The position numbers and the translations under genes are program-made. Below, piece after piece: positions 1,995-4,776 of a stretch of DNA of 64,000 nt; positions within the stretch are counted from its first letter, which is position 1; each line of letters opens with the position of its first letter. Below the pieces are notes generated by a model. That model was given only the letters and a program-made list of their open reading frames with translations. It ran no database searches and had not been told where the DNA came from. This stretch comes from Methyloversatilis sp. RAC08 (GTDB lineage Bacteria > Pseudomonadota > Gammaproteobacteria > Burkholderiales > Rhodocyclaceae): contig NZ_CP016448.1 in assembly GCF_001713355.1 (NCBI RefSeq), positions 2,356,001-2,420,000 on the forward strand, read 5' to 3'.

Positions 1995-3314
1995 TCACGG
2001 CACGAATGTCAGTCCGAGGCCGATCACCACGCCCGACATGAACAGCGTGATCAGGCAGTAGCCCATGATGTCCTTCGCGCGCAGGCCCGCGATGGCCAGC
2101 GCGGGCAGGGCCCAGAAGGGCTGGATCAGGTTGGTCCAGGCGTCGCCCCAGGCCACCGCCATGGCCACGCGCGGCAGGTCGGCGCCCATGCTGGCGGCGG
2201 CCTCGACCATGATCGGTCCCTGTACCGCCCACTGACCTCCGCCGGACGGCACGAATATATTCACCAGACCGGCGCTGAGGAATGCAAACAGCGGCAGCGT
2301 GGTGTCGGTCGACACGGCAACGAACACATTCGAGATCGTCACCGCAAGCCCCGAGCCGACGATCATGCCCATCAGGCCGGCATAGAACGGAAACTGCACG
2401 ATGATGCCGCCCGAACCGCGCGCGGCGTCGCCGATCGCCGCCAGAAAGCGGCTGGGTCGGCCGTGCAGCATGATGCCGAGGAACAGGAACATGAAATTGA
2501 CGATGTTCAGGTTCAAGGTGCCGGCGCTGACCAGGAAGTAGTAGCCGGAAAACACCAGACCCATGATGCCGACCGACTGCGCCAGCAGGATGCTGTTGTC
2601 AAGCCGCGCAGCCGGCGTGTCGGTGCTGGTGTCGGGCACGAATTCGACATCGACCAGCAGCGCCGGATCGACCGTCACCGTGTTTTCGGGGCGCGGCATC
2701 ATCAGCCGGTTCAGTATCGGCACGCAGATGAACAGCGCCAGCACGATGAGCAGGTTGAAGGTCGAGAAGATCGTGTCGCCGGTGGCGATGACGCCGGTGC
2801 GGGCGGCGAGGAAGTGGTCGGCCGTGGCGAGCGTGAGTGGCACCGAGCCTGACAGACCGCCATGCCAGATGACGAAGCCGCTGTAGGCGCTGGCGATCAG
2901 CAGACGGTAGTCGACGCCCGCCACGCCGCGCGCCAGCTGGCGCGCGAACATCGCGCCGATGACCAGGCCGAATCCCCAGTTGAGCCAGCTCGCCAGCAGC
3001 GACACCACACTCACCAGCAGGATGGCCTGCCCCGGCGTGTGCGCCAGTTCTGCGATGGCTTCGAGAATGCGGCGGAAGAACAGCGTCGTCGCCAGCACCC
3101 AGCCGGTCACGAGTATCAGCACCATCTGCATCGAAAACTGCAGCAGGTTCCAGAACCCCTTGCCCCAGTGCTCGAGCATCGCCACCGGCGACTGTCCCTC
3201 GACACCGATGCCGGCCGCGAACACGAGCAGCGTCAGCAGCAGCACCAGCACGAACGGATCGGGCAGCCATCTTTCAACCAGCCGGACGGACAGCGACGTG
3301 ACACGTTGCAGCAT
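1995..3314 (-). CDS. atoE: Short-chain fatty acid transporter, AtoE family
   Basis: A 439-residue polytopic membrane protein of the AtoE family, which in E. coli imports acetoacetate/butyrate-type short-chain acids. Family traits are the N-terminal VERWLPDPFVLVLLLTLLVF, the SWLNWGFGLVIGA segment, and the PSGGGQWAVQGPI and WGDAWTNLIQPFWALP motifs near the C terminus. Length matches the family. The ATG at 3314 follows an AGGAG ribosome site. No acetoacetyl-CoA transferase or thiolase gene is adjacent, so the gene stands alone and the substrate is inferred only from the family. Confidence 0.88.
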   Translation of the reverse strand: MLQRVTSLSVRLVERWLPDPFVLVLLLTLLVFAAGIGVEGQSPVAMLEHWGKGFWNLLQFSMQMVLILVTGWVLATTLFFRRILEAIAELAHTPGQAILLVSVVSLLASWLNWGFGLVIGAMFARQLARGVAGVDYRLLIASAYSGFVIWHGGLSGSVPLTLATADHFLAARTGVIATGDTIFSTFNLLIVLALFICVPILNRLMMPRPENTVTVDPALLVDVEFVPDTSTDTPAARLDNSILLAQSVGIMGLVFSGYYFLVSAGTLNLNIVNFMFLFLGIMLHGRPSRFLAAIGDAARGSGGIIVQFPFYAGLMGMIVGSGLAVTISNVFVAVSTDTTLPLFAFLSAGLVNIFVPSGGGQWAVQGPIMVEAAASMGADLPRVAMAVAWGDAWTNLIQPFWALPALAIAGLRAKDIMGYCLITLFMSGVVIGLGLTFVP

Positions 3315-3456
3315 GGGAATCTCCTGTTTATATTTTTCGCGCCGGCCATCGAGGGCGGGCGGTCGGCGTGCGCAGACATGCCGCGCAGCGTGAGGATAGC
3401 CCAGTCGTCACCGGTGTGACGTCGAGCTCTTCCCGATCCGGACAGGTGCATGCTGC

Positions 3457-3804
3457 ATGGACCCCGTCACCTGGTCGAACAGCGAGAGGAAGATTGCTCG
3501 ACAGGCTTTCTACACGGCGCTGTCGCGCGAAGAGGCATCGCTGCTGGCGGATTTCAAGGCGCGCGCCGCGGCGGCGGCGACGCAGGATGACATGTGGGCG
3601 GTCTACCGGTTTCTGGCCGAGCGGGACGGCTACATGGGCAGGAAGTATGAATTCCGTTACTCGGAACTGATTTCCCTGTTTGTGCTGCTGCGCGCAGAGG
3701 GCTGGCTGGACGAAGCCGATCTGGCGGGTCTGCGCGATGACAAGCTCACGATGATCCGCGAGGGGTGCGCGCGCTGGCAGCGTCATTTCGAGTGCGGCGA
3801 CTGA
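3457..3804 (+). CDS. FRP-like protein (fluorescence recovery protein homologue)
   Basis: A 115-residue, apparently all-helical soluble protein. From memory of the family, its pattern fits the cyanobacterial fluorescence recovery protein along most of its length: W(S)xxE near the start, REEASLLADFKA, DDMWAVYRFLAER, KYEFRYSELISLF and the final LRDDKLTMIREG. In cyanobacteria FRP accelerates relaxation of the photoactivated orange carotenoid protein. No OCP-like or carotenoid gene lies in this window, so the job must differ or the partner is elsewhere. The functionally important Trp is kept (W47), but the Asp and Arg I recall four and ten residues after it in the Synechocystis protein are Arg and Asp here. 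Divergent from the transporter gene upstream. Confidence 0.75.
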   Translation: MDPVTWSNSERKIARQAFYTALSREEASLLADFKARAAAAATQDDMWAVYRFLAERDGYMGRKYEFRYSELISLFVLLRAEGWLDEADLAGLRDDKLTMIREGCARWQRHFECGD

Positions 3805-3827
3805 TCGCCGCGCCAAGCGGCGATCAG
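3801..3827 (+). terminator. Perfect 11-bp hairpin at the end of the FRP-like gene
   Basis: CTGATCGCCGC, a five-base loop (GCCAA) and GCGGCGATCAG form a perfect stem. The stem includes the gene's own TGA stop codon (3802-3804). There is no T run after it, so it is a weak candidate for intrinsic termination. Its place between two converging genes suggests an end signal for one or both. Confidence 0.5.
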
Positions 3828-3837
3828 GCGCACGTCA

Positions 3838-4776
3838 TCAGGTCTTTTCAGAGTCCAGCCAAACCTCGAGCCCCTGTGCGTTGAGTTCGATGTCCAGCCC
3901 CCATACGGCCATCGCCTCGTCACGCGTGAGCGGGCTGCCGTGGGCGCGCAGTTCGTCCATCAGATAGGCGGACAGCGCGGCCAGCAGCGCCTGCTTGCGG
4001 CCGTCACCGGCACTGGCGGCCGCCCTGGCGATCGCCACGTGGGCGTCGATGCGCGACAGCAGCGCGCGGCCCAGCGTCGGTACGCCGGTCACCTTGCCGT
4101 AGTGGGTCAGGAACATCGCCTCCGGCTGCCGCGACAGCAAACGCTCGACCGACGCGCGCATCGCGACCGGATCGAACTGAACCGGCGACGTGGTCGGGAA
4201 GATGAAGGCGCGGCCATCGACCGTGCATTCCGGGTAGGCCAGGCCGAAGGTGTCGCCCGTAAACCAGCCCTGCGAGCGCGCGTCCCAGATGCAGTGATGG
4301 TGCTTCGCGTGGCCCGGCGTGTCGATGAATTCGAGCGTGCGGCCGTTGAAGTCGAGCACGTAACCGTCATGCGTTTCGATCACGCGCGCCGCGTCGACCG
4401 GCAGGATGTCGCCATACATGTCGGCCATCGCCTGCGCGCCATAGACGTCCGTGGCACCCGTAATCAGTTTCGACGGATCGATCATGTGGCGCGCGCCGCG
4501 CGGATGCACCACCAGCTGCGCATTCGGAAAGGCGCGCATCGCTGCACCGGCGCCGCTGGCGTGGTCCAGATGCACGTGGGTCAGAATGACGTAGCGCAGC
4601 TTGTCGGCGGCGATGCCCTTGTGTGCCAGTGCGGCCAGCACATTGGGCAGCGAATGGCCGGTGCCGCAGTCGACCAGCGCCGCTTCGTCACCGGCGCGCA
4701 GCAGGTGGATGGATGCCATGCCGTGGCGGAGCAGTGCAGCGTCGATGGCGGATATGTCGTGCTCGTAATCGATCAT
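3838..4776 (-). CDS. MBL-fold metallo-hydrolase
   Basis: A 312-residue soluble metallo-beta-lactamase-fold hydrolase. The metal-binding signature is THVHLDH (His67, His69, Asp71, His72), with a further His in DTPGHAKHH and an Asp in FTGDTFG. A C-terminal helical extension of about 100 residues follows the core. The start codon overlaps the stop of the thioesterase gene in an ATGA, so the two are translationally coupled; together they may act on thioester or related substrates, but that is inference. Glyoxalase II-like activity is one alternative. Fold secure, substrate unknown. Confidence 0.85.
   Translation of the reverse strand: MIDYEHDISAIDAALLRHGMASIHLLRAGDEAALVDCGTGHSLPNVLAALAHKGIAADKLRYVILTHVHLDHASGAGAAMRAFPNAQLVVHPRGARHMIDPSKLITGATDVYGAQAMADMYGDILPVDAARVIETHDGYVLDFNGRTLEFIDTPGHAKHHHCIWDARSQGWFTGDTFGLAYPECTVDGRAFIFPTTSPVQFDPVAMRASVERLLSRQPEAMFLTHYGKVTGVPTLGRALLSRIDAHVAIARAAASAGDGRKQALLAALSAYLMDELRAHGSPLTRDEAMAVWGLDIELNAQGLEVWLDSEKT

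Follow-up and report, generated by a model that had tools for sequence, protein, structure and literature searches.

An FRP-like protein of Methyloversatilis sp. RAC08, from a genome in which OCP domains were not found, with clustered changes in an otherwise conserved stretch

Introduction

The fluorescence recovery protein (FRP) of cyanobacteria contacts the orange carotenoid protein (OCP) through its head. R60 of FRP is described as highly conserved (PMC6155142), and F76, K102 and L106 are given as the states that contact OCP (PMC10172135). FRP-like proteins (FRPLs) have been reported in proteobacteria and acidobacteria, in genomes described as having no OCP, HCP or CTDH, and the structure of the P. 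borbori FRPL, a dimer, has been solved (8AG8; Steube et al. 2023, PMC10172135). The same report describes polar concentration of the P. borbori protein with a rising signal on starvation, and treats the role of FRPLs in bacteria without OCP as an open question.

Here we describe an FRPL gene, frpl, from Methyloversatilis sp. RAC08. It was found in a stretch of 64,000 nucleotides (contig NZ_CP016448.1, positions 2,356,001 to 2,420,000 of the forward strand), which we call the window. Because a solved FRPL from outside cyanobacteria has been in print since 2023 (PMC10172135), the presence of such proteins in bacteria without OCP is not a new observation, and the published picture of the origin of the FRP family is unaltered by our results. 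Among the titles and abstract openings covered, which took in few subscription journals, we recognised no second report on FRPLs as such or on a Methyloversatilis FRPL. What the genus offers is a small natural series of intact, broken and absent copies for studying dispensability and for finding the partner, and the clustering of changes on the presumed working surface adds to the value of that series.

Family membership and fold

The frpl gene (3457 to 3804, + strand) encodes 115 residues between an ATG start and a TGA stop. A weak ribosome-binding-like GGACAGG (3440 to 3446, + strand), proposed from the letters only, lies 10 bases 5' of the start, and a promoter and terminator scan of 3200 to 3950 found none. 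The first-pass annotation had called the product an FRP-like protein outside cyanobacteria and proposed a search against the family profile. That search was significant, with an E value of 1.6e-16 and 60.9 bits against PF18032.6 (FRP; curated cut-off 26.6 bits) over positions 1 to 95 of the 99 in the profile, and it places the protein in the FRP family, broadly defined. Two NCBIfam matches were both far below cut-off. A sequence search of the PDB at E ≤ 1 returned only four entries, all FRP or FRPL, namely the P. borbori FRPL (8ag8, 4.7e-21), an FRP (5tz0, 2.8e-16) and Slr1964 (4jdq, 7.4e-10; 4jdx, 1e-9). The best named sequence match was a Methyloversatilis record (L012) with 93% identity, apparently from congener G377.

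The AlphaFold monomer model, built with 28 aligned sequences, had a mean pLDDT of 92.4 and helices at residues 8-39, 43-63, 68-80, 86-89 and 94-113, the last three lying in the head region (residues 63-113; 3643 to 3795, + strand). Foldseek matched seven chains at E < 0.001, every one an FRP or FRPL. With VIA-align, the model overlaid Fremyella FRP 5TZ0 (Z 15.4, 1.2 Å, 103 residues), the P. borbori FRPL 8AG8 (Z 14.4, 2.0 Å, 105 residues) and Synechocystis FRP 4JDX (Z 14.4, 1.8 Å, 102 residues) and 4JDQ (Z 14.2), and the next best entry after the FRP and FRPL chains reached only Z 5.7. The superposition on Synechocystis FRP that the annotation had also proposed therefore succeeded as a comparison of monomers. 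Since the matched chains are the same relatives found by sequence, the fold search confirms the PDB sequence result and does not extend it. The eleven hydrophobic interface positions of FRP (PMC6155142) were read on the window protein at an offset of 3 from the published numbering. L, F, A, M, W or V occupies nine of these, and the two polar ones, E26 and Q43, count against a dimer. We propose that the frpl product, a small all-helical protein, most likely works as a homodimer, in which a long two-helix stalk would form the dimer and each subunit would carry a helical head.

The best solved match is the P. borbori FRPL, which shares the family, the fold, 41-42% identity and the conserved W and KY, and likewise comes from a genome in which no OCP domain was found. 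It differs in having REID at the concave stretch, an E/Q pair and F at position 76, against DGYMG, R/D and S in the window protein. The cyanobacterial FRPs (Slr1964, 4JDX; Fremyella, 5TZ0) share the fold and W50 with the window protein, whereas R60, H61, E62, I63, D64, F76, K102 and L106 are all altered in the latter. The FRPL of Ottowia thiooxydans (L043), the nearest tree row outside the genus, has 48% identity over the best segment and is of the FRPL type; it keeps RREIDRKYDY and lies at a path length of 1.52 from the window protein.

Search for OCP domains and OCP-contact residues

The annotation had noted that no OCP gene is in the window and suggested a genome search for homologues of its two domains, and the observation is borne out genome-wide. 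The OCP N-terminal domain (PF09150) was detected in none of the six non-cyanobacterial FRPL genomes, the window's included, and in both cyanobacterial controls. The same split was obtained for the C-terminal domain, again with two positive controls, using a single Synechocystis-type query whose scope stops short of distant NTF2-fold relatives.

A true FRP is distinguished by Arg60 with F76, K102 and L106 and by an OCP in the same genome, and an FRPL by the lack of any OCP, HCP or CTDH homologue and by grouping with other FRPLs. In the alignment, the window protein has D57 in place of Arg60 and S73, M99 and G103 in place of the three contact states. Its genome gave no OCP in the N- and C-domain searches, and no OCP, HCP or CTDH homologue was found with the N-domain profile and the one C-domain query. 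The protein could still be an FRP with a latent ability to act on OCP, as its fold overlays that of true FRP and one Desulfobacteraceae FRPL is reported to act on OCP1 (PMC10172135). However, such an activity is barely credible for a protein with none of the three contact states, with Asp for R60 and from a genome where OCP domains were not found, the more so as the FRPL of P. borbori, which has one of these states, is reported to have virtually no effect (PMC10172135).

A role apart from OCP is likely for the window FRPL, as has already been argued for FRPLs in general (PMC10172135). The protein would not regulate OCP; most likely it is a stand-alone adaptor whose head and concave face bind a soluble partner, perhaps when cells starve, in line with the report on P. 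borbori.

The residue pair and the concave stretch

Aligned without gaps to Synechocystis FRP, whose residues were numbered from W50 (named in PMC6155142), W47 (codon 3595 to 3597, + strand) matches W50, R51 (codon 3607 to 3609, + strand) matches D54 and D57 matches R60. Trp occupies the first of these sites in every row of the alignment table. The annotation had described a kept Trp47 followed by an Asp and an Arg, at +4 and +10, replaced by Arg and Asp; the description is accurate and the departure from Synechocystis is real. Its interpretation as a swapped functional pair fared less well, for the letters are indeed reversed but the pair is doubtful as a unit, given M51 with D57 in G377 and the longer altered stretch.

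Sites 51 and 57 read D/R in 53 and N/R in 9 of the 62 cyanobacterial rows. In the 14 other non-cyanobacterial rows the pair is D/R in six and E/Q in two, with Q/R, A/R, Q/A, E/R, S/R and K/C once each, K/C coming from a doubtful row (L011; 23.8 bits, below the family cut-off). Three further proteobacterial FRPLs have D/R, D/R and H/R, and the seven FRPLs found by profile alone have D/R in six and H/R in one. When 16 other non-cyanobacterial rows were compared, site 51 was changed with R57 kept in five and both sites were changed in three (E/Q, E/Q, Q/A). In these alignments D and R are the usual letters, with R57 the steadier of the two. Among the rows compared, R/D is confined to Methyloversatilis, where four of the five rows have it and the fifth, G377 (L002/L012), has M/D.

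One explanation is a compensated charge swap, in which R51 and D57 would have been exchanged together and would keep a putative ionic contact of Synechocystis D54/R60. It agrees with the reversal of both letters against Synechocystis, with R/D in most of the Methyloversatilis rows, with the prevalence of D/R elsewhere (both in cyanobacteria and in the profile-found FRPLs) and with the fact that in other rows R57 is never altered while D51 is retained. Nevertheless, it is very improbable, as G377 combines M51 with a retained D57, site 51 alters alone in the Q/R, A/R, E/R, S/R and H/R rows, and the alterations extend across neighbouring sites. The two sites are not tied one to one, since five rows differ at 51 only and one congener combines M51 with D57. 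The residue swap looks like part of a clustered, genus-specific rewrite of the concave stretch and not an exchanged functional pair.

The rewritten stretch includes residues 57-61, DGYMG (codons 3625 to 3639, + strand), which hold D57 and for which other members mostly have R, R/H, E (or A/D), I and D; R57 and D61 are nearly always kept in other FRP and FRPL rows. The intact Methyloversatilis proteins have D-G-Y/V-M-G here. Of 40 positions conserved in 70% or more of 13 other FRPLs, nine no longer carry the usual letter in the three intact Methyloversatilis proteins, and five of the nine are consecutive, at residues 57-61. Altered conserved sites make up five of six within 50-62 against four of 34 elsewhere, a count biased by selection since a pattern scan spanning residues 58-66 (the scan of 72 loci) supplied nine of the 13 rows, which inflates conservation at 58-61. 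The doubtful row L011 was left out of this count, though it is among the 14 pair rows above. The clustering was also seen with only the seven profile-found rows (L007-L010, L124-L126), where altered sites numbered 6/7 at 50-62 against 7/41 elsewhere with a conservation cut of at least 5/7 (Fisher p 0.0008) and 3/4 against 3/28 with a cut of at least 6/7 (p 0.015), p values that are indicative only because the segment was picked after viewing the alignment. In these seven rows residue 57 is R in all, 61 and 51 are each D in six, 58 is R in five and 60 is I in five, and conservation is lacking at residue 59 (A, A, A, E, D, E, E). Within the genus the new letters are kept, D57 and G58 in 5/5 rows and M60 and G61 in the 4/4 readable rows, all from near relatives. 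One locus repeats another (L006 and L003, on two contigs of G376), and L002 and L012, which seem to be a single record, were counted once.

A local double frameshift as the origin of DGYMG was considered and rejected: over a 57-base stretch, gaps gained 0-8 points when the window was compared with nine FRPLs, within the 0-13 points gained among pairs of those nine. In the same region, the KY at 63-64 that is otherwise kept reads TF, MF or LF in three proteobacterial FRPLs (L124, L125, L126).

With the rest of the core kept, the rebuilt stretch 51-61, concave and presumably facing a partner, may reflect a new, genus-specific partner, a suggestion that we consider unlikely and offer tentatively. 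If true, nature would have run an interface-rewiring experiment on a scaffold with a history of gaining partners that is known in cyanobacteria.

Distribution and phylogeny

In the window, frpl lies between a divergent short-chain fatty acid transporter gene (AtoE-like, PF02667; 1995 to 3314, - strand) and a convergent gene for a metallo-beta-lactamase-fold protein (MBL, PF00753; 3838 to 4776, - strand). Five of 13 Methyloversatilis genomes, the window's included, carry frpl, four of them above the family cut-off, and eight have no copy. The MBL neighbour is present in all 13, with 93-96% identity to the window's in the frpl-bearing genomes against 83-89% in the others, so within the genus frpl is limited to genomes near the window's by this measure. 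In broader samples, each counting the window's own genome, frpl occurred in 1/150 genomes of the family, 6/399 of the order (one below cut-off), 1/369 of the class and 4/398 of the phylum, and in 1/390 of the order to which Pseudomonas sp. CC6-YY-74 belongs, the one carrier being that genome itself; the samples partly overlap and miss known carriers, so that they show rarity, not absence.

A tree was built from 71 of 83 rows, leaving out broken, doubtful, duplicate and near-duplicate ones; it used 106 columns, many of its forks are unresolved, and its midpoint root serves for drawing only. The 55 cyanobacterial rows formed one group (88/90), and the window protein fell among 15 non-cyanobacterial rows (95/84), grouping with FRPLs and not with cyanobacterial FRPs. 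Three Methyloversatilis rows clustered together (100/100) near proteobacterial and acidobacterial FRPLs, and the stem leading to them measured 1.0 changes per site. The annotation had suggested an ancestral or repurposed member. An ancestral position is not supported, because of that stem among proteobacterial and acidobacterial FRPLs and the confinement of the gene to congeners near the window's genome; repurposing, in the sense of the likely non-OCP role, can stand. The patchy distribution suggests that frpl probably arrived sideways in one Methyloversatilis sub-lineage, with differential loss as the alternative. The GC content around the gene is 0.63-0.65 and not foreign. Carriage by phages or plasmids was also considered and rejected, as 145 pattern matches in viral_contigs included 0 relatives and there were 0 pattern matches in plasmids.

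Selection and decay

Between pairs of the three intact Methyloversatilis copies, whole-gene dN/dS of frpl is 0.18-0.28, well below 1 and higher than in the neighbouring genes for AtoE (0.07-0.10), MBL (0.08-0.17) and ACOT (0.02-0.14). For the first 57 codons the three pairs gave about 0.63, 0.26 and 0.48, with few changes behind each figure. Intact frpl is under moderate selection as a whole, with weaker selection on the first half. In two species (G378 and G372; L100, L101) frpl, between the AtoE-like and MBL genes, carries the same 77-base frame-breaking deletion. In G378 this leaves an 83-residue frame that ends just past residue 80, with about two thirds of the head lost, and G372 has an additional one-base loss near codon 59 and GTG in place of ATG. 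Given the common deletion, frpl is not needed everywhere; some species retain it and others have a broken copy. The G376 copy (L098/L003) has a three-residue tandem duplication in the head (ADL repeated) and is otherwise intact. Two G376 contigs, C15 and C16 (L098, L099), showed no differences in a comparison of 18.9 kb that includes frpl; assembly redundancy is the probable cause.

These data bear on whether the gene is simply fading, that is, an FRPL acquired sideways that lost its original role and is drifting, with the altered stretch a product of relaxed constraint. The deletion common to two of five carriers, the further loss in one of them, the eight of 13 genus genomes without a copy, the stem of 1.0 changes per site, M51 in one congener and dN/dS values of 0.26-0.63 over the first 57 codons are all in keeping with it. 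The weak constraint in these codons led us to weight this explanation up and our preferred one down. We still regard it as somewhat unlikely, since whole-gene dN/dS of the intact copies is 0.18-0.28, 30 of 34 conserved sites outside the patch are unchanged in one or more of the intact proteins (three in all), and the new letters D57, G58, M60 and G61 are retained, albeit among near relatives.

Taken together, the explanation that we prefer and consider probable is that the protein is an FRPL, likely a homodimeric stand-alone adaptor with a non-OCP role, acquired sideways, rewritten in its concave stretch and dispensable in some species. On this proposal, frpl would have entered the Methyloversatilis sub-lineage sideways, the concave-face stretch around residues 51-61 would have been rewritten after arrival, and the gene would then have become dispensable in some species.

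Gene neighbourhood

The AtoE-like gene adjoins frpl in all five frpl-bearing congeners. Four congeners without frpl were examined over the 6 kb on that side of MBL, and their long frames resemble one another but not those of the window. One further congener has an AtoE relative (L121; G373:C88) that is 79% identical and was matched in two pieces, the second of which contains an in-frame stop; no frpl was detected beside it in 3.2 kb. A partnership between AtoE and frpl was not adopted, as G373 has an apparently broken AtoE without a detected frpl, and the window AtoE frame has no counterpart at the non-Methyloversatilis loci compared (15-locus set). Conservation of the wider neighbourhood was likewise rejected as a clue to the partner: in an all-against-all comparison of the frames of 15 loci, the other loci share frpl itself with the window. 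Beyond frpl, many frames are common to the window and congener L098 only, and L102 shares one, at a distance of several kb. Common surroundings were also seen at three Pseudomonas loci (L014, L016, L023), and a few other pairs have single frames in common. Pfam searches on 25 frpl-near proteins elsewhere and five of the window returned unrelated families, nine of the 25 being unmatched; the families include carbamoyl-phosphate synthase, glutamate synthase, TerC, topoisomerase, TctC and LysE. There is no neighbourhood common beyond near relatives, which suits a stand-alone gene.

Two other features of the window were recorded. A DM13 electron-transfer domain protein (1457 to 1972, + strand) is encoded beside a two-component sensor kinase (47 to 1432). 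A DNA photolyase-type gene (PF00875, PF03441; 6777 to 8420, - strand) lies 3 kb from frpl and is uninformative on OCP.
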